Of a stretch of DNA of 64,000 bases, positions 42,130 through 64,000 are shown one piece after another. The translations under genes and the position numbers were made by a program. How positions within the stretch are numbered: position 1 is the stretch's first letter; each line of letters starts with the position of its first letter. The notes beneath the pieces are model-generated. The model did no database searches and was not told the origin of the DNA. It was given only the letters and a program-made list of their open reading frames with translations. This stretch comes from an uncultured Cycloclasticus sp. (GTDB taxonomy: Bacteria > Pseudomonadota > Gammaproteobacteria > Methylococcales > Cycloclasticaceae): NCBI GenBank assembly GCA_913060865.1, contig CAJXTU010000004.1:92514-156513 (forward strand), read 5' to 3'.

Positions 42130-43122
42130 CTATGCTAAGCCAAATAACTTTCGCACTGATATAACGTACGCCTTTGCATCTTCTGCGGCATCGGGTAAAT
42201 CAGTTAAAGCTGCACAATAAGCATCTATTGCTTTATCAGCGAGCGGCTGCCATTTGTCGACCCAGCCTTGGATAATGGATGTATTTGCGTCATTACTCAT
42301 AGCAAACTCCATTAAAGACTTAGTTTGACGCTGATGCCTTTCTGCATCACGCATTTGTGCATCGTTCAATAATGATAATAAGGTATCCGCATTTTCAGCG
42401 CCTGCTAAGCCTAATTGTTTTTGTACCGCCGCTGAAACGGCGGGCTTTAATATAACATTCAAAACAACAGTAGCTTCAGCCCAATCCCAAGTGACTAATG
42501 CTTTTTCAGCAAGTTCTCTGAACCCTTGCCATGCAGGATCTTTTTCCCAGTGTTCGCGTTCATTTTCACCTAAACCAACGTCAGGCCATGTTTTTGCAAG
42601 CTCACAGGTACGATAAGCACTATGAGTTACCCAACGAAGGTGATCAGCAGATTGATACGTACCTAAGTTTGAGATGGTACTAGCAGGTGATATTTGATGC
42701 AGGTAGGCAGCGCACATTTGTAATGCATGGTACAAATAGCGAGAGGGCGTGTACAAACGAGCTAAATCTGCCGCCCATTCCTTACTAATCATTTGATCGT
42801 TGCCACGCTCACTAAACTGGTTAAGCAATCCTGTTACGTAGGCTTCTTGGCCTTCTTGAAGGATATTATACGTTCTATAGACTAATTGTTCTGGGTCCCT
42901 GAACGCATCCCAGTTGTCATGCTTTAACGGACTGTTATTTCGGTACGTTATGTACCAATCATTCATTTTTGCATCTTGCCCTACTTCAAACGGTTTTTCT
43001 TTATTATTTGTATGAAAGTGTAGGTTAGTAGTAACGATCTCATATTCACTAGGTCTTTTTCTTTGCTTAGAAAGGTGTGACCACGTTTTTAACGGTTTTA
43101 ATGTTTGTGCTGAATCACTCAT
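42130..43122 (-). CDS. tmoE: Toluene-4-monooxygenase-type beta subunit
   Basis: LKTWSHLSKQRKRPSEYEIVTTNLHFH, DPEQLVYRTYNILQEGQEAYV; cluster position. Confidence 0.92.
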   Translation of the reverse strand: MSDSAQTLKPLKTWSHLSKQRKRPSEYEIVTTNLHFHTNNKEKPFEVGQDAKMNDWYITYRNNSPLKHDNWDAFRDPEQLVYRTYNILQEGQEAYVTGLLNQFSERGNDQMISKEWAADLARLYTPSRYLYHALQMCAAYLHQISPASTISNLGTYQSADHLRWVTHSAYRTCELAKTWPDVGLGENEREHWEKDPAWQGFRELAEKALVTWDWAEATVVLNVILKPAVSAAVQKQLGLAGAENADTLLSLLNDAQMRDAERHQRQTKSLMEFAMSNDANTSIIQGWVDKWQPLADKAIDAYCAALTDLPDAAEDAKAYVISVRKLFGLA

Positions 43123-43140
43123 AATATTTCCTTCTTAAAG

Positions 43141-43449
43141 TTATAACGTTTTTTCAAAGTAAAAACGAATTTGTTCAGGCGTTACCTCAATTTGACCAGC
43201 CATCGAGCCTAAATGGATTTCAATTTCATTCATTTGAAAATCACGACCTAACGCTTCTTCCATTGATTCTCTTGTGATAATCAACTCTTGCTCTGCTGAA
43301 ATACGAATGTAAGCACCCTTATCGACAACAGTAATTTCTTTATCAGGGTTATCCCACTCAGCTGCCTCTATCGCTGCTTGAGCAACATCGCCGCCATTAA
43401 ATACTGGGCCCACTTTATTTTGTTTAAATGCATCTTTTAAGTTTGACAT
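43141..43449 (-). CDS. tmoD: Diiron monooxygenase effector (MmoB/DmpM/TmoD family)
   Basis: KVGPVFNGGDVAQAAIEAAEWDNP, RISAEQELIITRESMEEALGRDFQM. Confidence 0.92.
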   Translation of the reverse strand: MSNLKDAFKQNKVGPVFNGGDVAQAAIEAAEWDNPDKEITVVDKGAYIRISAEQELIITRESMEEALGRDFQMNEIEIHLGSMAGQIEVTPEQIRFYFEKTL

Positions 43450-43491
43450 ATCAACTCTCTTTTAATTTATTCTCAAGGGTATAAGCCTTGC

Positions 43492-43830
43492 TTATGAATG
43501 AGCAGTAAATGGCTCAATGCCATCAATATCCACTAAGACATCTTCGCCTTCAATCTTCAGTGGGTATTCTGCAATCTTACAATCTGTAGGGTTTAAGCCT
43601 TTACCGTTGTTAGTATCAAACTGCCATAAATGTGCTTTACACGTCAGCACTTTGCCATCAAATTCACCTTCTACTAATTCAATTTCCTGATGTGGGCAAA
43701 TAGCTTGAAACGCTTTCAAATCACCCCCGTCTACACCTAAAACTAAAACAGATGTACCGTTTGCCGTATCAAAACAATCCATATCCCCTTCCCAAACATC
43801 ATCTAATGTACAAACCTTTTCAAATGCCAT
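43492..43830 (-). CDS. tmoC: Rieske ferredoxin of toluene monooxygenase
   Basis: CPHQEIELVEGEFDGKVLTCKAHLWQF (CxH...CxxH). Confidence 0.94.
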   Translation of the reverse strand: MAFEKVCTLDDVWEGDMDCFDTANGTSVLVLGVDGGDLKAFQAICPHQEIELVEGEFDGKVLTCKAHLWQFDTNNGKGLNPTDCKIAEYPLKIEGEDVLVDIDGIEPFTAHS

Positions 43831-43847
43831 TATTTATTCTCCTAGCC

Positions 43848-44108
43848 TTATTGATCTGCAAAAATGATATCTATCGTTTCGGTTGGTCTCCAGCCAGCTT
43901 CAGACACCTTCATATCACGTGGTAAACTCTCAGTCGCTTGATGCACCCTTACCCGCATAATTTTATCGGGTTGTGGTGCTACGCGGCGGCCAACTGAATG
44001 GTAGGCGCATTTTTCAGCCACCTGATCCATTGTGTCATCGGTATCAACAGGGATTAATTGCAATACAAAATCACCCTCAAAATTTGAACTTATCGGAAAT
44101 ACAGCCAT
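43848..44108 (-). CDS. tmoB: Toluene monooxygenase gamma subunit
   Basis: FPISSNFEGDFVLQLIPVDTDDTMDQVAEKCAYHSVGRRVAP. Confidence 0.93.
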   Translation of the reverse strand: MAVFPISSNFEGDFVLQLIPVDTDDTMDQVAEKCAYHSVGRRVAPQPDKIMRVRVHQATESLPRDMKVSEAGWRPTETIDIIFADQ

Positions 44109-44219: not shown

Positions 44220-45716
44220 TTAAGCGACTTCAGCCTGTTTTTTAAACGCTTGCGCCCACGCGTAATCATGTGCATCTTTACCCATTTCACCCGGACCTAA
44301 ACCCATGTACGTCAATGCACCGGGTAAATCAGCTGGTTGTATATCACCCGCTAAAAAGTGATCAATAAGATTTTGATGCTCTTTATACCTTTCTGGGTCT
44401 TGCTCGAAACACCAACGATCAGCTTCAGATCCAAAGTGATACAAGCGACCTTCAAACTCCAACTGGTAATCTTTCACATCCCAACCACTCCCCGGTGTAC
44501 CTACAATAGGCAACTGACACATGTTACAAACATACGGAAGTGTTTCTGGTAGCGTTAAATCTTCGCGACCATTATTTATATTGTCCGTAATAACATCCCA
44601 ACATTTACCCCATGTGTCATTCCAACCTGGGTATTTTTCTTCTAACCATTCACGATCTTCAGGTGATGCACCTGCTGCAGGGTTCCACCATACCGTCGGA
44701 CGCCAATACCAAACACCTAAATGCATACCGTGGTGAGTCACGTCCAGATCGTTTGTTAAATCTTCCCAGAACCATGGCGCATCTAGCCCCAAATCAGCTA
44801 ACTGACGTTCAAATTGGATAATGATCCACTCAACCATGAATTCTTTAAATGACTGGGATCTATGCTCAAGGGGTGTGTAGTAATCCATAATTGGCCCCGT
44901 TAACACAGAAAACAATTTCCATGCACGCCAAATAGAAACATCTACTAATTTCTGCGCTTCTTCTTTATGCCCGTTTGCAATTAATATTTTTAACGAAGGC
45001 CCACCTTGTTGAGCGTGGCGGGCTTCATCTGTTTGAACACTAGAGATTAAACTCGCAAATGTGTGATCACCTGCCTCTGATGCGTCGGCCGCTAACCCCA
45101 AGAATTGCATATTGGTAAAGCCTGTTTCAAAACCAAATGTCAGCATAATTGAAACAGCAATTGCATCACGAGTTAGCATAATGTCATCAAAGAACGAACG
45201 AGCAGCAACAGATGCCCAATCATTCGTATGCATTGCTTTATGCGCCCAATCCCATTGATGGCTACGTTTAATGTTTGCGTGTGGGAAAAACAATTGAATT
45301 TGCCCATGGCGGTTTTCATCTAAAGTTCCAAATGTCGCCATATTACGATTACCCGGCGCCTTAGAGAAACGAGCCATACGGGCTTCTGCTAAACTTGCCG
45401 CATATTCATTCACAGCAATGGCGCCGTAATGTGCAATCATCGTTGAAATCCAACCTGGATCAGCGCGATCAACATAAGCATCGCGTTCTAGCGCTGCTTT
45501 AACTGAATAAGCACCTGCGTCTTTTTCACGTTGTATAGCGACATATTCAGGGTATGAAACTTTATATGGCTCATCATAAGTTTCCCATGCTTCAATGGGA
45601 ATGCCACGAGAACCACTCATCTCCTCTGGAAATATTTCATCTTCAGACACATAACTATAAGTCCAGTTAGTAGCACGTGTTAAGTCATACCATTCTGCTC
45701 TGGGTATTTGATACAT
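44220..45716 (-). CDS. tmoA: Toluene-4-monooxygenase-type alpha (hydroxylase) subunit
   Basis: EWYDLTRATNWT, DENRHGQIQLFFPH, FETGFTNMQFLGLAADA, TDEARHAQQGG diiron ligands; colinear with TmoA. Confidence 0.95.
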   Translation of the reverse strand: MYQIPRAEWYDLTRATNWTYSYVSEDEIFPEEMSGSRGIPIEAWETYDEPYKVSYPEYVAIQREKDAGAYSVKAALERDAYVDRADPGWISTMIAHYGAIAVNEYAASLAEARMARFSKAPGNRNMATFGTLDENRHGQIQLFFPHANIKRSHQWDWAHKAMHTNDWASVAARSFFDDIMLTRDAIAVSIMLTFGFETGFTNMQFLGLAADASEAGDHTFASLISSVQTDEARHAQQGGPSLKILIANGHKEEAQKLVDVSIWRAWKLFSVLTGPIMDYYTPLEHRSQSFKEFMVEWIIIQFERQLADLGLDAPWFWEDLTNDLDVTHHGMHLGVWYWRPTVWWNPAAGASPEDREWLEEKYPGWNDTWGKCWDVITDNINNGREDLTLPETLPYVCNMCQLPIVGTPGSGWDVKDYQLEFEGRLYHFGSEADRWCFEQDPERYKEHQNLIDHFLAGDIQPADLPGALTYMGLGPGEMGKDAHDYAWAQAFKKQAEVA

Positions 45717-45794: not shown

Positions 45795-45812
45795 TTGCAT
45801 AATACATGCCAA
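45795..45812 (-). promoter_or_regulatory. Sigma-54 type -24/-12 promoter upstream of tmoA
   Basis: Minus strand TTGGCATGTATTATGCAA; exactly 10 nt between GG and GC; about 70 nt leader to tmoA. Confidence 0.75.
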
Positions 45813-45883
45813 AACGTAGAGCCTTGTCATGCATGCATTTTGTTACTTTGGTGATTCTCGATTGATAATAAAATGATAGGAAT

Positions 45884-45899
45884 TTCATTATTTGATAAA
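45884..45899. promoter_or_regulatory. Putative XylR/DmpR-type upstream activator site for tmoA
   Basis: TTCATTATTTGATAAA (reverse complement TTTATCAAATAATGAA), 15/16 identical to the site upstream of dmpK; about 106 bp upstream of predicted TSS. Confidence 0.6.
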
Positions 45900-45952
45900 C
45901 AACCAATCGTTGACATTAATATGATTAGTTTCACATTCACTTATATCGGGGC

Positions 45953-45988
45953 AAAAAAAAGCCCTAGTCAACTGTTGTTGCTAGAGCC
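45953..45988 (-). terminator. Intrinsic terminator of the PanE-like gene
   Basis: Minus strand GGCTCTAGCAACaacaGTTGACTAGGGC followed by TTTTTTTT. Confidence 0.85.
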
Positions 45989-46041
45989 ATTAAGGATTAC
46001 CAGTAATCCATTATTTTTTAATGGATTTACTCCATTTTCTT

Positions 46042-47058
46042 TTATCTATTACTATCAATTGTTTTAATAACACGATATGCACCGTGAAAAGTAGGGATAG
46101 CAACATTATTTTCTTTTGCCGCTTCAATTAACGGTAAAAATATGGCATCTGCCTCTGTTACTTTTCCATTAATCAAGTCTTCGTGCATGGACGTTCTAAT
46201 ACCTCTAGGTAGCGACTTCATATGCTCCCCAAGATCAAGGCATACTTGAACCGCTTCTTCAAATGTAGACTCATCCAAGACTTTAAGAAAGGAAAAGGGT
46301 GCATAAAAATCCTGCGGCGTGTAACCCTTTGACTTATAAATATCAATAAGCTCTTTGGCAATCACCACATAATGCTCCGCCCCTTCACGTACTGAAATTC
46401 CATCAGCATAGTCCAGGGCAGGAATGGCGCTTAGCGTACTGGCAGCCCACGCAGATGCACCTGACACTTGAGTCGCTTTTTCCCATAACACATGATTAAT
46501 ATCCTCAACCGACTCTGACTTTAAATTAGCCCCTGTAAATGCTTTAGCTAAGGTTTCAGTTCGCTCAGTACTACCACCGCTTAACTCACCAAAAAAAGCC
46601 GTGGTAGGTGCCGTTACGTGATTATTTACTTTTCCAGGCTCCAATAAAGTACCGCCTTCAATAATTGAGCCTCCAATTACCTTTTGTTCGCCAAAGCGCT
46701 CAATTAAAAGTGCTTCTTTACCCACACCATTTTGCATCGTTAAAGCGCACTGAATCTGATCGACTAACACAGCGGCATCTTCTAAAGCAGCCGGCGCGTC
46801 CTTCGCTTTGGTTAACAAAATGTAATAATCGATAACGCCCTCAACTTGATCAGGCATTGTTACGGCACGCAAATTATCTTTAATCAACATATCACCTAAA
46901 CGACCAACCACTTGAAGGCCGTTTTGATTAATGGCATCTGCATGCGCTTGCCGACTAATCAATGTAACCTGATGCCCCGATTTAGCTAAATAACCGCCTA
47001 TCACAGACCCTAATCCGCCTGCGCCATGGATACATATATGCAATGGTTTCTTCATCAT
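46042..47058 (-). CDS. Second PanE/ApbA-type ketopantoate reductase family protein
   Basis: HICIHGAGGLGSVIGGYLAKSGHQVTLISR; start likely MMKKP at 47058. Confidence 0.85.
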   Translation of the reverse strand: MMKKPLHICIHGAGGLGSVIGGYLAKSGHQVTLISRQAHADAINQNGLQVVGRLGDMLIKDNLRAVTMPDQVEGVIDYYILLTKAKDAPAALEDAAVLVDQIQCALTMQNGVGKEALLIERFGEQKVIGGSIIEGGTLLEPGKVNNHVTAPTTAFFGELSGGSTERTETLAKAFTGANLKSESVEDINHVLWEKATQVSGASAWAASTLSAIPALDYADGISVREGAEHYVVIAKELIDIYKSKGYTPQDFYAPFSFLKVLDESTFEEAVQVCLDLGEHMKSLPRGIRTSMHEDLINGKVTEADAIFLPLIEAAKENNVAIPTFHGAYRVIKTIDSNR

Positions 47059-47060
47059 CT

Positions 47061-48023
47061 TTAACTTACACCTAACTCTTTTAGTGTTGACTGAATACGT
47101 GCTTTTAATGCAGGTGTGCATTGCTCAATAGGGGGGCGGATAGGCCCTGCTTTCAAGCCAATCGCATCAAACCATGCTTTCATGCTGGCTAAGGCACTGG
47201 CATAGGTAAATGTTTGCACTACATCCCAGATAAAGACTTCATTATAAAACTCGCGAATATCGTTAAGCTGCTCACTCACTTTATAGGCCTCTTCCCACTT
47301 ACCTGCTGCCGACAATGCCATGTAATCTTTAACGATATGACGTTTTTTTCCATATAGAATATAAGAGAGCTCACCAAAAACAACTTGCCCTCCTTTTCTT
47401 AAATCATCACAAAAAACGGCTTCAAATGGATCAGCCACGATAAAGTCTGGGCGAATAATGCTACGTATTTTCAACGTTTCTACTCGATTCATAACACCCT
47501 GTTTTGTTCCCACCACAGTATCAAGGTCGGCCAAACGCTGCATTAAGTCCCAGCCCAATACTTTCCCAGACACAGGCGTTCTGTATAAAACAACGGCCAA
47601 ATCTGAGCTATCAGTAATAAATTTAAACCAGTTATACACTTCATCATCGCTTTTAAGCTGAACAACAGGATTGATAACTTCCACACCGTCATAACCTAGT
47701 ACTTCCAAGCGCTTCATCTTTTCAATGGTTTGATACGCACTGGGGTCTAATAATATTGAAAATAATGGGATGCGCCCGTTGACCGCTTCGGCCACCACTT
47801 CATGGTAGCGATACCATTCATCTAACGTGGCGTTCCAACATTCGGCAATAAACCCCCCCACAACCAAGCCATCCACACCCATTTCAATGAACGCTTCGAT
47901 GTTCTCACGAATGCCTTCTTCATCAAACGTAAAATCATCATTCATCGGTGAAATAGGACACATAAATAAGCCCTTTATATGCTCATTCGCCCATTCTTTC
48001 GCTGTTTCTCTTGTGTAATCCAT
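47061..48023 (-). CDS. DapA/class I aldolase family protein with non-canonical GGFIAE motif
   Basis: GLFMCPISPMNDDFTFDEEGI, LYRTP and GTKQG (Tyr and Schiff-base Lys), KAGPIRPP C-terminal motif. Confidence 0.82.
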   Translation of the reverse strand: MDYTRETAKEWANEHIKGLFMCPISPMNDDFTFDEEGIRENIEAFIEMGVDGLVVGGFIAECWNATLDEWYRYHEVVAEAVNGRIPLFSILLDPSAYQTIEKMKRLEVLGYDGVEVINPVVQLKSDDEVYNWFKFITDSSDLAVVLYRTPVSGKVLGWDLMQRLADLDTVVGTKQGVMNRVETLKIRSIIRPDFIVADPFEAVFCDDLRKGGQVVFGELSYILYGKKRHIVKDYMALSAAGKWEEAYKVSEQLNDIREFYNEVFIWDVVQTFTYASALASMKAWFDAIGLKAGPIRPPIEQCTPALKARIQSTLKELGVS

Positions 48024-48058
48024 CGTTTTCTCCTATTAAGTATCTATTATTTGTTCTT

Positions 48059-49117
48059 TTATAGTGCTCTCACAATAGCTGCTGCTAATGATTCTGTTGT
48101 CGCGTTACCGCCCATATCAGGGGTAAGGCTATCTTTACTTTGTAATACCTGCTCTATTGCTTTCACAATTCTATCGGCCGCTTCCTGCTCACCTAAATGC
48201 TCTAACATCATAGCGCCTGACCATATTTGACCAATCGGATTTGCAATACCTTTACCGGCAATATCGGGTGCTGAGCCATGAACTGGCTCAAACATGGACG
48301 GGTAATCTCCTTCTGGGTTGATATTTGCCGAGGGCGCGATACCAATAGTGCCTGCTATAGCGGGGCCTAAATCAGATAAAATATCGCCGAATAGATTGCT
48401 GCCGACGACCACATCAAACCAGTCAGGATGCAAGACAAAGTTTGCGGCTAAAATATCAATATGATATTGGTCAACATGAATATCGGGGTACTGTTTAGAC
48501 AAGTCTGCAAAACGCTCATCCCAAAAGGGCATGGTATGCAAAACACCGTTAGACTTTGTTGCTGAGGTTAGGTGCTTTTTATCACGCGTCATCGCCAGCT
48601 CGAACGCATACTTCATAACACGGTCAACACCACGACGAGTAAACACATCTGTTTTCACCACCGTTTCAAAAGGTGTTCCTTCATTTTGTCGACCACCAAT
48701 TGAGGAGTACTCGCCTTCACTGTTTTCTCGCACCACATAAAAATCAATATCTTCCGCTGTACGACCCGCTAAAGGAGAACTAACCCCTTTTAGTAAGCGA
48801 ATAGGCCGTAAATTAATATATTGATCAAACGAACGTCGAATAGGAATGAGTAGGCCCCATAAAGAAATATGGTCGGGAACGCCTGGAAAACCGACCGCGC
48901 CCAAGTAAATGGCATCCGAATCCTTCAACAGTTCTATGCCATCATCAGGCATCATTTTGCCTGTTGCATGATAGGTTTCGCAGCTCCAAGGGTACTCCGT
49001 AAGGCTCAACTTAAAACCGTGGTCATCCGCCACTTTTTGCAACACACTCAGACCCGCAGGCATCACTTCCTTGCCTATTCCATCGCCAGGAATAACGGCA
49101 ACCTCATATCGTTTCAA
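48059..49117 (-). CDS. Isocitrate/isopropylmalate dehydrogenase family, tartrate/D-malate dehydrogenase type
   Basis: EVAVIPGDGIGKEV, VRENSEGEYSSIGGR, NLFGDILSDLG, EPVHGSAPDIAGKGIANP. Confidence 0.88.
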   Translation of the reverse strand: MKRYEVAVIPGDGIGKEVMPAGLSVLQKVADDHGFKLSLTEYPWSCETYHATGKMMPDDGIELLKDSDAIYLGAVGFPGVPDHISLWGLLIPIRRSFDQYINLRPIRLLKGVSSPLAGRTAEDIDFYVVRENSEGEYSSIGGRQNEGTPFETVVKTDVFTRRGVDRVMKYAFELAMTRDKKHLTSATKSNGVLHTMPFWDERFADLSKQYPDIHVDQYHIDILAANFVLHPDWFDVVVGSNLFGDILSDLGPAIAGTIGIAPSANINPEGDYPSMFEPVHGSAPDIAGKGIANPIGQIWSGAMMLEHLGEQEAADRIVKAIEQVLQSKDSLTPDMGGNATTESLAAAIVRAL

Positions 49118-49191
49118 AATCTCTCCTTGCTTGTCTACTTTTTTTGTTTATATTATTAACGTCTTATATTTAATAAATCAATAAAAATATC

Positions 49192-50643
49192 ATGAATATT
49201 AGTAACCCGAGTCTTTTCAAACAACAAGCCTTTATAAACGGGCAGTGGGTTGATGCAACAGACCATCAAACGATGCCTATTTATAACCCATCTAGCAATC
49301 AATTAATTGGCCGTGTACCCGTCATAACTGCTCAGCAGACCCAAGAAGCTATTCGCTGCGCTCAGGCAGCATGGGCAAACTGGCGAGATAAACCGGCAAA
49401 AGAGCGCTCAACGGTATTACGACGCTGGTTTGACCTTATTCTTGAAAACCAAGAGGACCTAGCTACGATCATTACCCTAGAACAAGGAAAGCCTCTGAAT
49501 GAGGCGCGCGGTGAAATCATCTATGGCTCCACCTTTGTTGAATGGTTTGCTGAAGAAGCCAAGCGCGTTTATGGCGATACCATTCCTGCACCTAGCGCTG
49601 ATAAGAAAATCATTGTTATTAAACAAGCCATTGGTGTCGTTGCGGCCATTACCCCTTGGAACTTCCCCAATGCAATGATTACCCGAAAATGTGCGCCTGC
49701 TCTAGCCGCTGGCTGCCCGGTTATTGTTAAACCTGCTCCTGAGACCCCTTTTTCTGCCTTAGCCCTAGCTGAACTAGGCCAGCAAGCAGGTCTACCTGAT
49801 GGTATTTTGAATGTTATTACAGGTGATGCACAAATTATTGGTGCCGAGCTGACCGCTAGCCCCATCGTACGAAAACTATCGTTTACCGGTTCGACTAAGG
49901 TTGGAAAAATACTGATGCGCCAATGTGCAGATACGGTTAAAAAATTAAGCTTGGAACTAGGTGGCAACGCACCGTTTATTGTCTTTGATGATGCCGACTT
50001 AGATGCGGCTGTTGAAGGTGCCATGGCAAGCAAGTTCAGAAATACCGGGCAAACATGCGTGTGTGCCAACCGTATTTTAGTTCAAGACGGTATCTATGAT
50101 GCCTTCGCAGAAAAGCTTGCCCGTACCGTGGCTAAAATGGTGGTGGCTGATGGTCTATCGGAACAAGCAGAACAAGGCCCACTCATTAATTCAGCCGCCT
50201 TAGCTAAAGTACAAACTCACCTTGATAACGCTGTTGAATTAGGTGCTACTGTACTAACAGGCGGGCAGCCACATGCTCTAGGTGGACTATTCTTCCAGCC
50301 TACGGTGCTTAGCAATGTCAATGAAACTATGCAAATAAGCCATGAAGAAACTTTTGGCCCTATTGCCCCTCTATACCGCTTCAATACCGACCAAGAAGCT
50401 ATTGATATGGCCAATAACACACCCTTTGGCCTAGCCGCTTATTTTTATTCGCAAAACATTAAACGTGTCTGGCATATTGCCGAAGCACTTGAGGTGGGTA
50501 TTGTTGGTATTAACGCAGGTGTTATCTCTTCCGAGGTCGCACCATTTGGCGGAATAAAAGAATCGGGTATTGGCCGAGAAGGGTCTAAATATGGCATTGA
50601 CGAGTTTGTGGAAATGAAATACCTCTGCCTAGGTGAAATGTAG
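49192..50643 (+). CDS. NAD(P)-dependent aldehyde dehydrogenase, succinate-semialdehyde dehydrogenase-like
   Basis: LELGGNAPFIVFDDADLD, NTGQTCVCANRI, FGGIKESGIGREGS. Confidence 0.9.
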   Translation: MNISNPSLFKQQAFINGQWVDATDHQTMPIYNPSSNQLIGRVPVITAQQTQEAIRCAQAAWANWRDKPAKERSTVLRRWFDLILENQEDLATIITLEQGKPLNEARGEIIYGSTFVEWFAEEAKRVYGDTIPAPSADKKIIVIKQAIGVVAAITPWNFPNAMITRKCAPALAAGCPVIVKPAPETPFSALALAELGQQAGLPDGILNVITGDAQIIGAELTASPIVRKLSFTGSTKVGKILMRQCADTVKKLSLELGGNAPFIVFDDADLDAAVEGAMASKFRNTGQTCVCANRILVQDGIYDAFAEKLARTVAKMVVADGLSEQAEQGPLINSAALAKVQTHLDNAVELGATVLTGGQPHALGGLFFQPTVLSNVNETMQISHEETFGPIAPLYRFNTDQEAIDMANNTPFGLAAYFYSQNIKRVWHIAEALEVGIVGINAGVISSEVAPFGGIKESGIGREGSKYGIDEFVEMKYLCLGEM

Positions 50644-51258: not shown

Positions 51259-52050
51259 TTAATCTACGAAACGCATAGTGACAGTGCCTAAGTCTTGATA
51301 ACGCACTGAAACATTATCACCTGCCTTAACTGCAATGGCTGGAGTAATGGCACCCGCCATAATAAAGGTACCTGCTGGAATGACCTCGCCACGTTCTGCT
51401 AACATGTTAGCTAACATGGCGATACTCGCTGCTGGGTGACCTAAAATAGCAGCACCTGCGCCAAGTTCCACAACCTCACCATTTATCTCCATCACAACAC
51501 CGATGGTTTTAAGGTCCAAGTCTTCAACAGGTAACATACGACCACCCGTTACAAAGCGAGATGATGACGAGTTATCCGCAATTACACTCTTAAGGTCAAA
51601 TTTAAAATCCTTGTAACGAGAGTCAATAATTTCAACCGCTGGTACAATAAAGTCTGTTGCTGACAACACATCACCGATGTGGCAACCAGGGCCACTGAGT
51701 TCTTTTTTCGTCACAAACGCAACTTCTGCTTCAACCTTTGGATGAATAAGTTCAGATATTTTAATTTCAGCACCATCTGGGCAGCTAAAATAATCCGCCA
51801 AGAATCCATAACATGGTGTTTCAACACCCATTTGACGCATTTTAGCCATGGATGTTAAGCCCATTTTTAGGCCAACAATTTTGTTACCCCTTGCTTCTTT
51901 ACGACGACGAATTTCCCATTGCACATCCAGCGCTTCATCCCAAGTAATATCTGGATAATCATTCGTAATTTTTGTTACTTCTGTGCAGTTTAGTTCTGCG
52001 TTTTCAAGATGCTCTGCTAATTTTTCAATCGTTGCTTTATCTAATGCCAT
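51259..52050 (-). CDS. dmpH: 4-oxalocrotonate decarboxylase
   Basis: ALDVQWEIRRRKEARGNKIVGLKMGLTS, KVEAEVAFV; between DmpG and DmpI. Confidence 0.93.
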   Translation of the reverse strand: MALDKATIEKLAEHLENAELNCTEVTKITNDYPDITWDEALDVQWEIRRRKEARGNKIVGLKMGLTSMAKMRQMGVETPCYGFLADYFSCPDGAEIKISELIHPKVEAEVAFVTKKELSGPGCHIGDVLSATDFIVPAVEIIDSRYKDFKFDLKSVIADNSSSSRFVTGGRMLPVEDLDLKTIGVVMEINGEVVELGAGAAILGHPAASIAMLANMLAERGEVIPAGTFIMAGAITPAIAVKAGDNVSVRYQDLGTVTMRFVD

Positions 52051-52059
52051 GGTAGTCCC

Positions 52060-53088
52060 CTAAGCTGATTTCTTTTTAATTTCTAGTGCTACATCTTCGA
52101 TCATATCTTCTTGACCGCCAACCGCACCCATTTCGCCCAATGCCATTAAAATTTCTCTTGCTGGCACACCGTGATTTTTCTCAGCTCTTTTCGCATGAAG
52201 TAAAAATGATGAATAGACACCCGCATAACCTAACGTTAATGAGTCTCTGTCTATGCGTGTTGGTGTCGGCATTAAAGGAAGTGCTATATCTTCAGCCACA
52301 TCCATAATTTTATCGACATCAACGCCTGTTTCAATACCCATCCGATTACAGACAGCCACCATCACTTCAAGTGGCGTATTACCTGCACCTGCGCCAAAAC
52401 CAGCAACAGAGCCATCAATACGAACGGCCCCTGCTTCAATCGCTGCGAGTGAGTTAGCAATACCCATCGCCATATTGTGATGACCATGAAAGCCGATTTC
52501 AATATCATTACTTAATCCTGCTCTTAAAGCCGCAATTCGATCCGTGACATCATCTGGTAATAAGTAGCCTGCTGAGTCCGTTGCATAAATACAATTTGCA
52601 CCGTAATCCACCATTTTTTTAGCTTGCTCTAACAAAGCTTCAGGTGACGTCATATGCGCCATCATTAAAAATCCAACCGTATCTAATCCGTATTCACGTG
52701 CTTTTTGAATATGCTGTTCAGAAACATCCGCCTCTGTACAATGAGTCGCAACACGAATAGTTGATATTCCACAACCCGCAGCCATATCTAAGTCCTCGAC
52801 CGTCCCTAAACCCGGTAACAGTAAAGCAGATATTTTGGCATTTTTCATTTTTGGAACAACTGCCTCAAGATATTCACGGTTAGTGTGTTTTCCAAACCCG
52901 TAATTAACTGAAGAACCACCTAAGCCATCGCCGTGCGTTACTTCGATTAATGGCATACCCGCTTCATCAAGGGCAACAGCCATTCGAACCATATCATCCA
53001 ACGAAAATTGATGACTAACTGAATGCATTCCATCACGTAACGCATTATCGTGTAGCTTAATTTTTTTACCTTTTAAATTCATCATCAA
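52060..53088 (-). CDS. dmpG: 4-hydroxy-2-oxovalerate aldolase
   Basis: [36 protein letters not shown]. Confidence 0.96.
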
Positions 53089-53092
53089 CCTC

Positions 53093-53998
53093 CTAAACCA
53101 ACTTGGTTAACGTTAGCGTGCCGTTTTCAATTTCTTCGGCAAACATTTCTGCTGTTCTTGTTCCAGCAGCCGTCATAATATCTAAATTACCCGCGTATTT
53201 TGGAAGGTAATCACCTAGGCCTTCAACTTCTAAAAACACACTCACTCTATTGCCATCAAATATTGGGCCGTTTTTCAACTTATATCCCGGCACATATTTT
53301 TGAACTTCTTTGATCATGGCATGTACTGACTCTGTAATAGCCTTCTGATCCGGCTCTGTTTCAGTTAAACAATGAACCGTATCCCTCATAATTAAAGGAG
53401 GTTCGGCAGGGTTTAAAATAATAATCGCTTTACCTTTTTTAGCACCACCAATCTCTTCAACTGCTCGTGCTGTCGTACGAGTAAACTCATCAATATTTTT
53501 ACGTGTACCTGGCCCAGCAGATTTTGATGCTACCGTTGCAACAATTTCACCATACTCTACGGGCTGCACTTGACTAACAGCCGCTACCATTGGAATCGTT
53601 GCTTGGCCACCACAGGTCACCATATTAACGTTCATTTCTTGCTCACCAACATGCTCTTTCAAGTTAACAGGTGGAACACAAAATGGGCCAATAGCCGCTG
53701 GTGTTAAATCAATCACTAACACACCTTTTTCTTGCAACTTACGGTTATTTTCACCGTGAACATAAGCTGAGGTTGCATCGAACGCGATCTGAATATTGTC
53801 CTCTTCAATATGAGGAATCAAGCCATCAACGCCTTCATGCGTTGTTTTCAAACCGGCAGCTTGAGCCTTTAACAAGCCATCTGAATCTGGGTCAATCCCT
53901 ACCATCCAAACTGGGTTTAAATTTGGGCTACGTTGTAACTTAGCCATTAAGTCAGTACCGATGTTACCGGAACCGATCATTGCACAATTTATTGCCAT
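53093..53998 (-). CDS. dmpF: Acetaldehyde dehydrogenase (acylating)
   Basis: [39 protein letters not shown]. Confidence 0.96.
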
Positions 53999-54023
53999 TA
54001 ACTAATCTCCTGAAATTTCGTGC

Positions 54024-54809
54024 TTAAACAAAGCGTACAGAAGCTGAACCAATTCCACCCACGCTAACACGCATAGAATCACCCGCTTTGGCGTCAACCA
54101 TCATGCATAATGCACCTGATAGAATCACCTCACCTGCTTTCAATGTTACGCCTAATGCGCCCATAGTATTAGCTAACCAAGTCATTGCATTGACAGGAGA
54201 GCCCAGTGCTGCCGCACCTGCACCTGTATGCATCAACTCTCCATTTTTTTCGAGGGTTAAACCACAAACACTTAAATCAACTTTACGTGGATCAACGGCC
54301 GTTCCACCTAGTACTAGGTAGCCACATGAAGCATTATCAGCCACCGTATCTTGAATTTTAATTTTCCAGTCAGTAATTCTTGAATCAACAATTTCAAAAC
54401 AAGGCATAACCGCTTCAGTCGCCGCTAAAATATCGGCATTAGTTAACCCTGGCCCGCACAAGTCTTTTTTTAGAACAAACGCTATTTCACCTTCCGCTTT
54501 CGGTTGGATCATTTTTTCAGAAACAGGAATATCCTGCCCTTCTGACATAACCATATCACTCAAGAGGTAGCCAAAATCAGGCTGGTTAACGTCCAACATA
54601 TTCATGACAACTTTACTCGTACAGCCTACTTTTTTACCAACAATTCTTTCACCTGCATCAAGACGACGTTGAATCATTTGATGTTGAATTTTATACGCAT
54701 CCTCAATCGTCACTTCTGGTGAGCGCTCGGTAATGGGTGCAATCGTTTGTTGCGTAATTAATGCGTTATATAGCTCATCGCCATACTGTATTATTTTTTC
54801 TTGATCCAT
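54024..54809 (-). CDS. dmpE: 2-hydroxypenta-2,4-dienoate hydratase
   Basis: DAYKIQHQMIQRRLDAGERIVGKKVGCTSKVVM. Confidence 0.94.
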   Translation of the reverse strand: MDQEKIIQYGDELYNALITQQTIAPITERSPEVTIEDAYKIQHQMIQRRLDAGERIVGKKVGCTSKVVMNMLDVNQPDFGYLLSDMVMSEGQDIPVSEKMIQPKAEGEIAFVLKKDLCGPGLTNADILAATEAVMPCFEIVDSRITDWKIKIQDTVADNASCGYLVLGGTAVDPRKVDLSVCGLTLEKNGELMHTGAGAAALGSPVNAMTWLANTMGALGVTLKAGEVILSGALCMMVDAKAGDSMRVSVGGIGSASVRFV

Positions 54810-54819
54810 TGTTTATTCC

Positions 54820-56271
54820 TTATAGTTTTACACAAATATTGGTCAGCTCTGAATAGAACTCCAATGAATAATGACCGCCTTCACGACCTGTTCCAGATTG
54901 CTTCGCTCCACCAAATGGTGTACGTAAATCTCTTAAAAACCAGCTATTAACCCAACAAACACCCGTATCCATTTGAGCAGCAACACGATGCGCTCGAGTA
55001 ACGCTTTCTGTCCAAACAGACGATGCTAAACCATAAGGCGTATCATTCGCTAACTCAATCGCCTCTTCTTCTGTATCAAATGGTGTGATATGTGTACATG
55101 GGCCGAAAATTTCTTCTTGTACAACTCGAGCTGTTTCTGGCAAACCTGTCCAGATGGTTGGTTCAACCCAGTAACCGCCCGATAAATCCTCAGGCATATC
55201 GGGAATTCCACCACCGGTAACAATTGTCGCGCCTTCGTCAGCCGCAGCTTTATAGAAGCTAAGAACTTTATCACGGTGAGCAGCGCTGATGAGCGGGCCC
55301 AAATTTGTTTCAGGGTCTTCAGAACGACCTAATTTAAGTGCTTCGGCACCTTCTTTAAGGCGCTGTACAAACTCATTAAAAATTGGGCGTTCAACATACA
55401 GACGTTCTGTACCTAAACAAACCTGACCACAATTAGCGAATGCTGAACGCATACTGCCTTCAATGGCTTTATCCATATCACAATCGGCAAATACAATACC
55501 CGCATTTTTGCCGCCAAGCTCTAATGACGAGTCACGAACACCCACAGCAGCCGCTGCAGCAATACGCTCACCTGTTGCCGTTGACCCTGTAAAGGTAATC
55601 GCATCCAAGCCTGGATTGGTAATTAACGCTTCACCGACTTCACGGCCTTTTCCTAAAATAACGTTATAAACTCCTTCTGGAACACCGGCATCATTCATCA
55701 CTTCACCCAGAAGTGTTGATGTTAACTGCGTCTCTTCGGATGGTTTAACAACAACAGTATTGCCACAGGCTAATGCAGGGGCAATTTTCCATGTCATTAG
55801 TAATAGGGGTAAGTTCCAAGGCCCTATAACGCCAATCACACCTTTAGGTTTACGAACTGTATAATTTAACGCACCCGTACCATCAGGCGTAGGCATATGA
55901 AACGCCTCATCTGCTGCATTTTTGATGGTATCAGCAAAAATCTTAAAGTTAGCAGCACCGCGCGGTATATCAATATGACTGGCAAGAGAATAAGGCTTTC
56001 CGGTATCTAGGCATTCTGCTTCTAAAAACTCATCAAAACGCGCATTAATGCCATCAGCAATTTTATATAAAATATCAACCCGGTCTTGTATTGAATATCC
56101 AGCCCAAGGACCTTTTAAAGCGGCACGAGCCGCATCAACGGCCTGCCCAACTTGTTCGATACTTGTTGTGTGATATTTACAAACCAGCTCGCCTGTTGTC
56201 GGTGAAAAAATATCACCAAATTCGCCAGAACTAGTGAACTCACCGTTGATAAAACCCTTAACTTCTCTCAT
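54820..56271 (-). CDS. dmpC: 2-hydroxymuconic semialdehyde dehydrogenase
   Basis: ALDH: LELGGKNAGIVFADCD, NCGQVCLGTERLYV, FGGAKQSGTGREGG. Confidence 0.93.
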   Translation of the reverse strand: MREVKGFINGEFTSSGEFGDIFSPTTGELVCKYHTTSIEQVGQAVDAARAALKGPWAGYSIQDRVDILYKIADGINARFDEFLEAECLDTGKPYSLASHIDIPRGAANFKIFADTIKNAADEAFHMPTPDGTGALNYTVRKPKGVIGVIGPWNLPLLLMTWKIAPALACGNTVVVKPSEETQLTSTLLGEVMNDAGVPEGVYNVILGKGREVGEALITNPGLDAITFTGSTATGERIAAAAAVGVRDSSLELGGKNAGIVFADCDMDKAIEGSMRSAFANCGQVCLGTERLYVERPIFNEFVQRLKEGAEALKLGRSEDPETNLGPLISAAHRDKVLSFYKAAADEGATIVTGGGIPDMPEDLSGGYWVEPTIWTGLPETARVVQEEIFGPCTHITPFDTEEEAIELANDTPYGLASSVWTESVTRAHRVAAQMDTGVCWVNSWFLRDLRTPFGGAKQSGTGREGGHYSLEFYSELTNICVKL

Positions 56272-56307
56272 ATTTATTTACCTAACTTCTATTTAACTTT
56301 CAATTAT

Positions 56308-56730
56308 TTAACTAATAGCATCAATACCTGCTTGAGCGCAGATAATATCTTCTTCTTCAGAACCACCTGAAACACCAATTGCCCCAATCAGCTCATCACC
56401 TTCCATAATCGGTAAGCCACCACCAAAGGTGACGATATTTGGCCTTTGTACTATACCCGCTTGTAATTGCACATTACCTTGGAGAATTTCACTCCACTGC
56501 ATGGTTGGAAACCCAAACCCCCCAGAGGTATAAGCCTTGTCTCTAGCAACACCCATAGATGGCAAGAACGAGTTATTCATTCTTAACAATGCAATTTCAA
56601 TAGCGGAACTATCAACCACGCAAACACTAATACCGATGTTTAACTCTTTGGCTTTCTCAACGGCAGCTTGAGCTGCAACACAAGCCGCTTCCATTAAAAT
56701 ATTTTTCTTTGCAATACTGTTACTAGCCAT
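56308..56730 (-). CDS. GlcG/HbpS (DUF336) family protein
   Basis: VARDKAYTSGGFGFPT, IVTFGGGLPIMEGDELIGAIGVSGG. Confidence 0.87.
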   Translation of the reverse strand: MASNSIAKKNILMEAACVAAQAAVEKAKELNIGISVCVVDSSAIEIALLRMNNSFLPSMGVARDKAYTSGGFGFPTMQWSEILQGNVQLQAGIVQRPNIVTFGGGLPIMEGDELIGAIGVSGGSEEEDIICAQAGIDAIS

Positions 56731-56735
56731 GATAC

Positions 56736-57656
56736 TTAAGAGGTAACGCCCATGAAACTATCCACCAACTGACGTGAGTGATAGAAAATTGCTTGGCCAA
56801 TGTTATCAGCTGTCCAAGTTAAAACAGGGCTATCGGGGTACACGTAACTATCTTCGGCAAATACTTCGTTACGATTACCAGATGGATCAAAGAAATAGAT
56901 AGTTTGGCCTCGAGTTAAACCATGGCGTGTTGGACCTGTTTCCAGCGGAATATCTTCCATTGAAATAATATCACCTGCTTTTAAAACACCCTCCCAAGAA
57001 CCTAATAAAAATGAAGCATGGTGTAATTGACCTGCCTCCTCAGAACGGATAAATGCAACATCATGTGCTTTAGTACTGCAGCTTAAAAATGTTGCCAGTT
57101 TAGTATCACCATCAACTATTTGTTCCGTTAATTGAAACTCTAACGCTTCAGTAAAAAACTTAAAGTTTTCGTCAAAATTATTGCCGTACAATAAGCAATG
57201 ATCAAAACGGATGGGCTCCATTCCTTTCAAACCTCTTGGCCAAGGCGCAGGATTAGTCGTTGGAAGACCGTTACCCACTTGTTCTTTTTCAGCATATAGC
57301 TCAAAAGTATGGCCAGCAGGAGCCACAAAACGCACCCTTTCGCCACAACCATTTAATTCACCAGCGGGCACTCTTTTAGTTTCAATGCCAAAGTTTTTAA
57401 CCTTAGATTCAAAACGCCACAAATCTTGCTCTGTTGCTACCTTGAACGCCATGTGATCCATGCCTGCTCGGTCTGAAGGTTCCAACACAACCGAAAACTT
57501 ATCTTGCTCATCCCAGCATTTAAGATATACACGCCCCTGATCATCTCGATCGGTTTCTATCAGACCAATATTTTCACAATAATGATTTAGCGATTCTTCC
57601 ATATCCAATACTCTTAATTGGACATGCCCCGGACGTAAAATTCCTGTCATTGCCAT
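56736..57656 (-). CDS. dmpB: Catechol 2,3-dioxygenase
   Basis: [54 protein letters not shown]. Confidence 0.95.
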
Positions 57657-58039: not shown

Positions 58040-59107
58040 TTAAATATTCCTAAACAATGGGCTCTTTTTGCTTTCAGCCTCAGCATCTGCCGCGCTAAAG
58101 AATTTCTCCATGAACATATCTTTTTCAAACAAACGCGCCCGCATTAACATCGTAATACATGCATCAATCATCATAGGAGGACCACACATATAGGCACGAT
58201 ATCCTTCAAATTTGCCCTTCATATGCTCTTTGGCTACTTCATGAATATACCCTGTTGCGCCCTCCCATTCCGGCTCAATATCGGGACCTGACAACCCAGG
58301 CACATAGGTGAAATTATCATGTTTCGCCTCAAGCTCTTCAAACAAATCTTTGTAATATAGCTCTTCAAGATTTCTTGCACCTTGGTACAAAATAACCTCG
58401 CGTGTGTCACCCGATTCCAACAAGTCCAACACCATTGACTTTGGACTGGCTAAGCCAGAACCACCGCCGAAAAACGCCATGGGTTTATCATCCGACGTTC
58501 TTAGGAAGAAATGCCCATACGGCGCAGATAGCTCCAGCGTATCGCCAACTTTTAATTCGTTATGAATCCACGTTGTGCCTTCCCCACCTGGGATTAAGGC
58601 GACATCAAATTCCAAAATGGTTTTTTCATTAGGTGATTGAGCCATTGAAAATGGGCGCGGTGTATCTAAACCAGGAATATGCAGGTTTGCGTATTGACCT
58701 GCTTGAAACTCCACCTCATCACCTTCAATTTCCAAAAACACGCCGACAATTCTTGGCGTTAATTTTTCGATCTTAACGACCTTGCCGGTAAAATCACGCA
58801 CGGGAATATTAGCCGCATCTGGCTCTTCTTCCACGTCAGCCTCTATGACAAGATCAGACTCAGGTTTCGCACAGCACGTTAAACACTTACCTTCATCACG
58901 CTCAAAATCCAATAACGCGAAAGGTGAAGCTTCATCACCAATCTCAACATCTCCTTCTAAAACATCAACTTTACACGTTCCACACAGGCCGTGACCACAA
59001 GCATGTGGCAAATAAACACCTTGCCGTAATGCAGCGTCTAAAATATTTTGATCTTCTTCGACTTCAATCGTAACACCTAAGGGCTCAATGGTGACTTCGT
59101 AGCTCAT
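58040..59107 (-). CDS. dmpP: Phenol hydroxylase reductase component P5
   Basis: CGHGLCGTCKVDVLEGD 2Fe-2S, RPFSMAQSP, FFGGGSGLASPKSM. Confidence 0.96.
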   Translation of the reverse strand: MSYEVTIEPLGVTIEVEEDQNILDAALRQGVYLPHACGHGLCGTCKVDVLEGDVEIGDEASPFALLDFERDEGKCLTCCAKPESDLVIEADVEEEPDAANIPVRDFTGKVVKIEKLTPRIVGVFLEIEGDEVEFQAGQYANLHIPGLDTPRPFSMAQSPNEKTILEFDVALIPGGEGTTWIHNELKVGDTLELSAPYGHFFLRTSDDKPMAFFGGGSGLASPKSMVLDLLESGDTREVILYQGARNLEELYYKDLFEELEAKHDNFTYVPGLSGPDIEPEWEGATGYIHEVAKEHMKGKFEGYRAYMCGPPMMIDACITMLMRARLFEKDMFMEKFFSAADAEAESKKSPLFRNI

Positions 59108-59110
59108 ACC

Positions 59111-59470
59111 TTATAACCTCGTGCCATTTATGCCATTAAGACCTGGCGTTTTAAAGCGAATTAATGACTTATGACCCACACCGTTATCTTTTAAAGATTT
59201 CCCCATATCGGGCTCAAACTTAACACCGTCTACTACCCACTGAACCGTTGACCAATCAATTTTTCTAAAGTCTGGGTGATAATTAAAAACCGACGGCATA
59301 ACATCAGAAACTAATGCCTGAAAAGGCATTTCAGGTGGCAATGGAAAAGCCTGAGCTGCTGAAAATAACAAGTGATCATCCCAACCGACATAAACTAACT
59401 GATTACCGTGAAAATTTTCTACTCTGTCTCTAACCAGATCGATATAACCATCTTTCGCTATAACTGCCAT
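59111..59470 (-). CDS. dmpO: Phenol hydroxylase P4 subunit
   Basis: RDRVENFHGNQLVYVGWDDHLLFSAAQAFPLPPEMPFQALV. Confidence 0.94.
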   Translation of the reverse strand: MAVIAKDGYIDLVRDRVENFHGNQLVYVGWDDHLLFSAAQAFPLPPEMPFQALVSDVMPSVFNYHPDFRKIDWSTVQWVVDGVKFEPDMGKSLKDNGVGHKSLIRFKTPGLNGINGTRL

Positions 59471-59495
59471 TTCTATCTCCTAAAATTGTCTAAGC

Positions 59496-61013
59496 TTAAG
59501 CCTGTTTTACCATCGCGTCGGTACCCTTCCACTCTTGCCAGCGCGCATGATCACGGGAACCAATATAATCACCCGTATCGTCTGGCGAAAACTTATACCA
59601 CTCTAGAACTTCTGGAATAGTTGCTCCACCACAATTACCTTGATAAATTTGATGCACGGGTAACCAAGCCTGTACATACTTTTCAGGCTCATACTCGAAA
59701 ATATCCTTACAACCGTCTGAACAGAAATGGTATTTATCACCGCCATGTTCGGTTACCCGATAACTAATTTGCATAGGGTCTGTTTGAACTTCAGTGAACA
59801 CCATGGGAACTTGGCAAACCTGACATAACTGTGGCAAACCTTTTTGAAATTCAAATGTTCCCTCTGCTTGTTGTTTTGCCCAATATTCAAAACGTGGGCG
59901 GTAATACTTATCAAACGTATCAGGATACTTTTCAGATAACCAAGCCATCTTCTCTTCCGTTGGTAAAAAGGTATGGAACCCAGTTGCATTACCTAGTGAA
60001 CAAAATACTGACCATACTTGATGACTAATGTGATCTGCTTCTGCCGTAGCCAATTCATGATACTTAGGCATCCTCAACCCATAACGTGACAAATCTTCAA
60101 ACAAGGCACCACCATTTTCAACAAAATATACATCCCACGCTTCTTTCCAAGACATTGGGCTGTTTGTCAGCATGTAATCTTGCATGGTTGCGACCAAAGC
60201 GAGTAAGCGATACGCACGCCAGAAGTGTTTATCCATCCAACGCTGCACAATCGGTAAGTTATCTTCATGCTGCTCAAGCATAAATTTAATAATTTCTAGA
60301 CCTAACGTCATATGACGCGACTCATCAGATTGGGCTGAAAAACCAAAAGTAACCGTCGCCATATCACCGTTATAAGCAGCACCTGACATAAACGGCACGA
60401 ATAATAAGTTTGTTAAAACGTATTCAAAGGCAAATGAAATAGATGTAATAAATTCAAAAGGCCCCGCACTAAGTGCGTCTTCAGAGAAAGCCTTTGGTAC
60501 AGATAAGTACCAGACACGATCAAACTGATGGAATGGGTCATGCAAGCCGTCAAAATGCTTATTATAATGACTAATGGTATGAACCTGTGTTTGCTGGTGA
60601 CGCAACTCATCAATCGCCTGCATTTGACACGCGATACGCGCACCATCGCCCCTAAAATGACGGCCTAAATGAGCAAAACCTCTATGCGCTGCATATTCAA
60701 TAGGCGTAACACCCGTAATAAACAATTTAATGGCGCTTAAGTAACTTGCATCGGCCAAGTTGGTTTGCCCATTATTTTGTGCGAAACTATCAATGACGGC
60801 ATATAGTTTTCTTTCTTTTTCAGCCTGAAATTTCCAGTACGCATCCATTGTTAAACGAAACGGGTCTTCCCACTTATCCCAATCTGTTATTTTGATTCCT
60901 TCAAACGTATCATAAGGAAACACATCATCCATTTTTTGATGCGTGGTTTCCCAGCCCATACCTCGTGTTAATAGCTCGTAACGTTTTCGTAAATTTAGTT
61001 TTTTTGATGGCAT
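59496..61013 (-). CDS. dmpN: Phenol hydroxylase alpha subunit P3
   Basis: IEYAAHRGFAHLGRHFRG, DELRHQQTQ, FAFEYVLTNLLFVPFMSGAAYNGD, DESRHMTLG. Confidence 0.96.
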   Translation of the reverse strand: MPSKKLNLRKRYELLTRGMGWETTHQKMDDVFPYDTFEGIKITDWDKWEDPFRLTMDAYWKFQAEKERKLYAVIDSFAQNNGQTNLADASYLSAIKLFITGVTPIEYAAHRGFAHLGRHFRGDGARIACQMQAIDELRHQQTQVHTISHYNKHFDGLHDPFHQFDRVWYLSVPKAFSEDALSAGPFEFITSISFAFEYVLTNLLFVPFMSGAAYNGDMATVTFGFSAQSDESRHMTLGLEIIKFMLEQHEDNLPIVQRWMDKHFWRAYRLLALVATMQDYMLTNSPMSWKEAWDVYFVENGGALFEDLSRYGLRMPKYHELATAEADHISHQVWSVFCSLGNATGFHTFLPTEEKMAWLSEKYPDTFDKYYRPRFEYWAKQQAEGTFEFQKGLPQLCQVCQVPMVFTEVQTDPMQISYRVTEHGGDKYHFCSDGCKDIFEYEPEKYVQAWLPVHQIYQGNCGGATIPEVLEWYKFSPDDTGDYIGSRDHARWQEWKGTDAMVKQA

Positions 61014-61039
61014 ATTAATATCCTCCTTTTTAGCGGCAA

Positions 61040-61318
61040 TTAGTGCCAGCTCAGCTCAAACTGATCTTCATCTTCATCAACATTTCCTGCTAATGAAACA
61101 AGGTTCAAATGTAATTCTTGAACATCCCATTCACGCCCTATTTGCTCCTCGACTGTTTCACGATTTACTACAAGTTTACCGGCACATTCCATCCTTACCA
61201 TACCGGGCTGGTACTGAATATTTGCCTCAGGGTTATCGACTTCAACTGCCTCTATTATTGGACGTGCATCTTCATTGTCTTGAAGGATCAAAAATACCGT
61301 GTTTTTTTTATCTGACAT
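61040..61318 (-). CDS. dmpM: Phenol hydroxylase effector P2
   Basis: VFLILQDNEDARPIIEAVEVDNPEANIQYQPGMVRME. Confidence 0.94.
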   Translation of the reverse strand: MSDKKNTVFLILQDNEDARPIIEAVEVDNPEANIQYQPGMVRMECAGKLVVNRETVEEQIGREWDVQELHLNLVSLAGNVDEDEDQFELSWH

Positions 61319-61332
61319 TCCTAACTCCTGAC

Positions 61333-62331
61333 TTAAACCGTGACGCCTTGTTTACCAAGACGGGTTAATAGCTCTTGTTTGACCTCTGCCAACTCGTTGA
61401 TACCTTCCGCACCAAAAGCTTTCAGCGCAATAGGTTCAACAGCAGCAGTTAATCGAGAGGTCCACTTCGCCACCCATTCAGATACAAGGGTCTTATTTGC
61501 GTCAGACTCTTTGACTGTTACTTTGGCTAACGCATTACTCCAACGAACCGTTTCCGCATACCAGTCATCCATAAATTCTGTCAGCATGGCAACTGTTGCA
61601 CCTCCCTCCTTAGTCAGCTTTTTCTCAAAACGGTTGTATATCAGTGGGAAAATCAAACCATCAAGCACAAAATTTTGCGCGACCATTAATTCGAACCAAT
61701 CATCTAAAACAAACATATCTTCTATAGCATGACGCAACTCTTGCCATTCAGGCGCTTCCATCCACGCTATTTTTGCAGCATCAATACTTGTTTCTTCGTT
61801 TTTATCTATTAATAAACCTATGCGAGTTACATATTGCGCCATACCTAATCGATCCATCGCGTTAAACATTGCCAAAGAACTAAAGTTAGAACCGTAGCAT
61901 TCATCGGTGATTTGGCAGTTATTCATATTAGCAGCCCATTCGACATGACGAAGAGGCACTAAAATATCCCGAACTTGCTGCTTAACTGCGTCAGGTACCG
62001 AATCAAACAAATCACGTTTATCGACAAACGAAAAATTGTGCTCTGCTACATCTTGCTGCTTTGAGCGAGTGATATTGTACGTACCATAATAATATTGCCG
62101 CGGGTCCGCAAAGCTATACCAATCTTCCATTACAATAGCAGTCCGTTTTTTGTCGTAGATCTCATGGTTTTTGTCCCAAATTGGACGAAACTGAAAATTC
62201 GCTGTAGGTTGCACGTCATAAACTGCTTCTTGATAACGTGAAGCAGGTTTCTTATTACCGAAACGCTCCTCTAGATTCCCATAAGACAACCGAATGGGCT
62301 GTATGGACTTTGCAGAAATTTCAATACTCAT
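61333..62331 (-). CDS. dmpL: Phenol hydroxylase beta subunit P1
   Basis: RYQEAVYDVQPTANFQFRPIWDKNHEIYD, DPRQYYYGTYNITRSKQQ. Confidence 0.95.
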   Translation of the reverse strand: MSIEISAKSIQPIRLSYGNLEERFGNKKPASRYQEAVYDVQPTANFQFRPIWDKNHEIYDKKRTAIVMEDWYSFADPRQYYYGTYNITRSKQQDVAEHNFSFVDKRDLFDSVPDAVKQQVRDILVPLRHVEWAANMNNCQITDECYGSNFSSLAMFNAMDRLGMAQYVTRIGLLIDKNEETSIDAAKIAWMEAPEWQELRHAIEDMFVLDDWFELMVAQNFVLDGLIFPLIYNRFEKKLTKEGGATVAMLTEFMDDWYAETVRWSNALAKVTVKESDANKTLVSEWVAKWTSRLTAAVEPIALKAFGAEGINELAEVKQELLTRLGKQGVTV

Positions 62332-62691: not shown

Positions 62692-62702
62692 TAAAAGATT
62701 AC

Positions 62703-62720
62703 AAAGCAACATTTGTGCCA
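62703..62720 (-). promoter_or_regulatory. Sigma-54 -24/-12 promoter of the dmp operon
   Basis: Minus strand TGGCAC-AAATG-TTGCT matches TGGCAC-N5-TTGCW exactly. Confidence 0.82.

Positions 62721-63782: not shown

Positions 63783-64000
<218 letters not shown>

Follow-up and report, generated by a model that had tools for sequence, protein, structure and literature searches.

The window, by which we mean the whole 64,000-nucleotide stretch analysed, lies on contig C4 of the genome (G000) of a marine, oil-degrading Cycloclasticus and carries two monooxygenase operons, both read from the minus strand. The genus assignment follows DmpL: among the named contigs that encode its nearest relatives, many are labelled Cycloclasticus. 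From 42.1 to 45.7 kb there is a toluene-4-monooxygenase-type system consisting of TmoA, TmoB, a Rieske protein, an MmoB/DmpM protein and a beta subunit. The hydroxylase alpha subunit is encoded by tmoA (44220-45716; Pfam Phenol_Hydrox and YHS), followed by tmoB, tmoC (Rieske), tmoD and tmoE (42130-44108; Pfam TmoB, Rieske, MmoB_DmpM and Phenol_Hydrox). From 58.0 to 62.7 kb lie the DmpKLMNOP phenol hydroxylase genes, namely dmpK (62425-62691, Phenol_hyd_sub) and dmpL, dmpM, dmpN, dmpO and dmpP (58040-62331, assigned by Pfam), and then the catechol meta-cleavage genes (51259-57656, minus strand; catechol 2,3-dioxygenase and hydroxymuconic semialdehyde dehydrogenase through to dmpH), which are collinear in the related genomes G008 and G013. 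Each monooxygenase operon is preceded by a sigma-54 promoter on the same strand: the -24/-12 sequence TGGCATGTATTATGCA (45796-45811) ahead of tmoA, and TGGCACAAATGTTGCT (62705-62720), which is kept in relatives, ahead of dmpK.

The first-pass annotation drew attention to a 16-bp dyad shared by the two upstream regions, and its 15/16 match is confirmed. The tmo site TTTATCAAATAATGAA (minus strand, the reverse complement of 45884-45899) and the dmp site TTTATCAAATGATGAA (62805-62820; minus strand, TTCATCATTTGATAAA in the reading direction of the operon) differ at a single position, the latter matching the dmp-derived consensus at 16/16 and the former at 15/16. With the transcription start set at 12 nt past the -12 C, the site centres lie approximately 106 bp (tmo) and 118 bp (dmp) upstream of the predicted start, as had been proposed. 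Since the site, with the consensus TTYATCAWWTGATRAA, is almost perfectly palindromic, the opposite orientation also ascribed to the two copies means little. The dyad had further been likened to the XylR/DmpR consensus, which we take to be TTGATCAATTGATCAA. In silico, an upstream activating site of XylR/DmpR type is indeed present at both sigma-54 promoters, but its consensus is TTYATCAWWTGATRAA rather than TTGATCAATTGATCAA; the Pseudomonas dmp Po site, presumably TTGATCAATTGATCAA, differs from that of Cycloclasticus at palindrome positions 3 and 14. The part of pWW0 examined, which may not include Pu, contains no exact TTGATCAATTGATCAA.

Pattern searches of the 2.43-Mb genome show how rare the site is. 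Exact matches to TTTATCAAATRATGAA occur only at the tmo and dmp sites, and allowing one mismatch adds a single further match, within a potassium-channel-like gene. About ten genomic sites have at most one mismatch, and in this genome-wide search, which the annotation had suggested, those of dmp and tmo alone are intergenic and followed by a good sigma-54 promoter no more than 300 bp away.

The palindrome is found ahead of dmp in 11/11 genomes in which a dmp operon was detected (Cycloclasticus and close relatives, that is, the genus plus G029 from another family), counts that are not independent since the genomes compared are related. In the upstream regions of these 11 genomes only the -24/-12 promoter and TTYATCAWWTGATRAA align well while the flanks diverge. 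The distance from the dmp site centre to the -24 element is 84-86 bp in seven genomes, 94 bp here, 72-74 bp in two and 121 bp in one. Most Cycloclasticus dmp promoters have one clear site, with no second clear site found in them. At tmo, a weak proximal site ATTATCAATCGAGAAT (45854-45869, minus strand, 12/16) accompanies the strong distal one, and the two are exactly 30 bp apart in G000. A tmo promoter of its own was found in five genomes; the site lies 81-84 bp from -24 in all five, and four of them have a second copy exactly 30 bp closer to the promoter. In the four split genomes other than G000 a similar promoter is some 80-84 bp from the distal site. Averaged over the five promoters, no offset does better than +30. 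In G008 the tmo site is weak (13/16) and without a clear partner.

Furthermore, we scored these regions with a weight matrix built only from the dmp sites of other genomes and compared the scores with those of 1000 shuffles. At both the tmo and the dmp site of G000 none of the 1000 shuffles scored as well, and at the four other tmo promoters 0-15 did so. Regions upstream of the candidate regulator gene described below gave 0-9 per 1000 in nine of 12 genomes; the signal is weaker in the other three, G001 and G008 being marginal and G029 giving no site by this matrix (237/1000). The shared 16-base sequence is very probably where one activator protein that senses aromatics docks.

We also considered an 18-bp element, AATGAWATTCCWATCATT, as an alternative operator. 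On the minus strand, at 45872-45889 and 62819-62836, it overlaps the edge of both sites and is oriented alike at each. This was seen in the present genome alone, where the next best match has 2 mismatches. It was rejected, as it lies beside both sites here but is not conserved in relatives.

The first-pass annotation described the two operons as unlinked. This is inaccurate, because tmo belongs with dmp and the meta-cleavage genes to a single co-oriented aromatic-catabolism cluster on the minus strand, contiguous in relatives and either fused or split among them. In G013, G007, G006 and the outgroup G029, tmoA begins tens of bases past the tautomerase gene of the dmp-meta operon, and no separate tmo promoter was found in these four genomes. 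In G008, G004, G005 and G014 a gap of approximately 0.25-0.5 kb, containing a sigma-54 promoter, separates the dmp-meta genes from tmoA. The genome of the window has a further block of about 5 kb (46042-50643), which G008 and G013 lack at this place. It encodes a PanE-like reductase, a DHDPS-like aldolase, an Iso_dh-family dehydrogenase and a succinate-semialdehyde dehydrogenase-like protein. Approximately 5.3 kb, including one gene on the opposite strand, here separate the dmp-meta genes from tmoA. Between the block and the tmo promoter lies a terminator-like hairpin with a T-run (45950-45990, minus strand), whose fold is weak (z = -1.4). The tree used to compare fused and split clusters has low support within the genus (29-86% apart from one pair); its outgroup G029 shows the fused arrangement.

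A DmpR/XylR/TbuT-like gene, which the first-pass annotation anticipated elsewhere in the genome, was found outside the window. It encodes the only XylR_N protein of the genome (563 aa, G000:C2:19892-21583), with XylR_N, V4R, Sigma54_activat and HTH_8 domains, all four above the Pfam cut-off, and a GAYTGA loop, the Tyr variant of GAFTGA. Its relatives are DmpR/CapR, MopR and MobR: the best PDB match is 6iy8 (DmpR/CapR), the sensor domain also matches PoxR and MopR, and the best NCBIfam match is MobR, at a score that does not reach the 999-bit cut-off of that model. An XylR_N protein is present in 11/11 genomes with dmp vs 2/20 searched without it. The claim that one activator serves both operons stands in part: a single XylR_N activator that co-occurs with dmp and has the site at its own gene fits it, but the operons are not unlinked. 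In G001 (L086) and G010 (L085) an XylR_N activator with upstream palindromes is present and no dmp was detected, both assemblies being incomplete.

As in Pseudomonas DmpR/CapR, which has the same domains and acts at dmp Po, the phenol-anchoring His99 and Trp127 are conserved in the Cycloclasticus activator and so are, in G000, the Cys3Glu zinc ligands (PMC7264223). In XylR of pWW0 the place of the His is taken by Tyr. The His also occurs in a Marinobacter regulator next to a tmo operon, so the residue is not proof of the effector. Together, the conserved His and Trp hint at a phenolic inducer, possibly the reaction product, rather than at toluene or benzene. In G004 (CSGSG; L091), G013 (CRASG; L089) and also G029 the zinc cysteines of the sensor are partly replaced.

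The contig that holds the activator gene, C2, starts with the 5′ part of a 16S rRNA gene (L121:1-348), and C4 ends with 5S and the 3′ part of 23S rRNA (63573-64000). Because these rRNA parts stand at the two contig ends, each on the minus strand, a single rRNA operon probably bridges C4 and C2. In G008, where the region is on one contig, and in G013, the counterpart of C2:2-23 kb adjoins dmp directly, and neither the G008 stretch nor the dmp-side half of the G013 stretch showed any rRNA. Taking the join from this synteny, the activator gene therefore probably lies upstream of dmp at a distance of approximately 27 kb and is oriented like it. Other genomes with both on one contig have the gene 10-24 kb from dmp on the same strand, and it is also near dmp in the outgroups G029 and G003. 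An rRNA operon apparently lies directly upstream of dmp here, whereas in G008 and G013 the flanking genes concerned adjoin dmp with no such operon between.

Upstream of the activator gene there are similar palindromes, in most genomes two with a spacing of 26-29 bp. Since it is the same palindrome, autoregulation is suggested, and the gene probably regulates itself through these sites, as a third target.

Activators of the XylR/DmpR family recognise 16-20-nt palindromes that come in pairs, spaced 29-42 nt from centre to centre and located 100-200 nt upstream (PMC6449761). The characteristic -24/-12 promoter (GG-N10-GC) is present at both dmp and tmo, whose site centres fall within the 100-200 nt of the family. 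Pairing at the family spacing is seen at tmo in four genomes (30 bp) and nearly so at the regulator gene (the 26-29 bp noted above), whereas most dmp promoters of Cycloclasticus, unlike Pseudomonas dmp Po with its site pair, show one. In Acinetobacter, MphR, MopR and MobR have the same XylR_N-V4R-AAA+-Fis architecture and are associated with a multicomponent phenol hydroxylase operon that has a sigma-54 promoter. In that genus the regulator gene adjoins the operon and is read divergently from it, whereas here it is probably some 27 kb away and tmo shares the site. The intergenic region between mobR and the phenol hydroxylase genes on an Acinetobacter plasmid contains TTCATCAAATCATGAA twice, 41 bp apart, near-identical to the Cycloclasticus site, and MphR has been shown to bind the mphR-mphK intergenic region, which holds such repeats (PMC3063778). 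In Azoarcus, too, near-identical sites precede a phenol operon: the pheR-like region contains CTCATCAAATGATCAA and TTTACCAAATGATCAC, 40 bp apart.

Related bacteria are already known or predicted to place toluene- and phenol-oxidising genes under one activator. TouR of Pseudomonas stutzeri OX1 is one activator for both the toluene/o-xylene monooxygenase and the phenol hydroxylase operons, the same one-activator, two-operon plan, and we liken it to the Cycloclasticus system by this plan rather than by its sites. In R. eutropha JMP134 and R. pickettii 12J one XylR/DmpR-type activator is predicted to act over tmoABCDEF and phenol genes, in R. metallidurans CH34 tmo is probably co-transcribed with aph, and AphR is predicted to bind GCTTGATCATTTGATCATGC (PMC6449761). 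The Cycloclasticus system therefore belongs to a known regulatory kind. The betaproteobacterial AphR/TbuT systems are of another lineage and involve the GntR repressor AphS and a separate TbuT, whereas here there is one XylR_N protein.

The sites and promoters, their conservation and spacing, the uniqueness of the activator, its co-occurrence with dmp and the synteny make it highly likely that a single enhancer-binding protein of the XylR/DmpR family uses TTYATCAWWTGATRAA as its upstream activating site and switches on both dmp and tmo; from them we infer binding, looping, the effector, induction and the sign of autoregulation. The activator, carrying an aromatic and probably phenolic effector, would bind the palindrome, or the tandem pair at tmo, and contact sigma-54 RNA polymerase at the -24/-12 promoter some 80-95 bp away, probably by DNA looping. 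Its ATP hydrolysis would then drive formation of the open complex. This would turn on dmp, with its phenol hydroxylase and meta-cleavage genes, as well as the toluene monooxygenase operon, which would be read from a promoter of its own. The same protein would probably bind the site pair upstream of its own gene for self-regulation. The toluene- and phenol-oxidising steps would be switched on together.

The window alone would leave room for a simpler explanation, a coincidence of AT-rich intergenic DNA with each operon under separate control. At three mismatches it contains six matches vs 3.3 expected, a weak enrichment in AT-rich sequence, and 16-mers of this type occur, with the same three mismatches allowed, 417 times in the genome. 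The significance of the match thus rests on the comparative evidence and not on the window. Conservation in every dmp promoter, a fixed distance to -24 at tmo and mostly also at dmp, the held-out matrix and the exact 30-bp pairing at tmo all argue against coincidence, which we regard as very improbable. It is also improbable, if not to that degree, that the palindrome serves another sigma-54 activator or a dyad-binding repressor rather than the XylR_N protein. The genome does encode seven clear Sigma54_activat proteins, six besides the XylR_N one, and GntR-type repressors such as AphS can co-regulate operons of this sort, but the AphS/BphS motif AAATmTCGAkATTT differs (PMC6449761). Moreover, matching sites lie close to MobR- and PheR-type genes in other taxa, and the XylR_N gene is both found together with dmp and itself preceded by the site.

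The regulation could also be real with tmo expressed mainly by read-through from dmp, its local site being minor. The fused genomes, in which tmoA comes straight after the tautomerase gene and no separate promoter was found, lend this some weight. In the window, however, the 5.3-kb separation with its opposite-strand gene, the terminator-like hairpin and then a sigma-54 promoter with a site pair ahead of tmoA speak against it, and we consider it unlikely. Activation of both operons through the shared palindrome by the XylR_N protein is the reading we prefer.

For Cycloclasticus, which plays an important part in the breakdown of aromatic hydrocarbons at sea, this reading gives a concrete, testable regulon (activator, dmp and tmo). 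A genus-wide study lists toluene and phenol/toluene monooxygenase genes and does not mention their regulation (PMC12510462). As the cluster is fused in some close relatives and split in others, it offers a natural case of co-regulation surviving operon splitting. More tentatively, and somewhat short of probable, Cycloclasticus may have a remodelled DmpR-type regulon, with a single-site dmp operon producing a near-leaderless mRNA and tmo either a read-through tail or an independent tandem-site unit, the splitting being traceable within the genus and co-regulation kept.

In the window the start codon of dmpK lies approximately 3 nt past the predicted transcription start, and the dmp mRNA of the genus is predicted to be a conserved leaderless sigma-54 transcript. 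The dmpK start codon is 13-18 nt past the -12 C in 9/9 placeable genomes of the genus and in three further contigs; these loci (62689-62720 in the window; L005-L013, L102, L105 and L106) have a predicted leader of 1-6 nt and no Shine-Dalgarno sequence. In several other taxa dmpK starts 39-48 nt past the -12 C, in some cases with AGGAG-like sequences.
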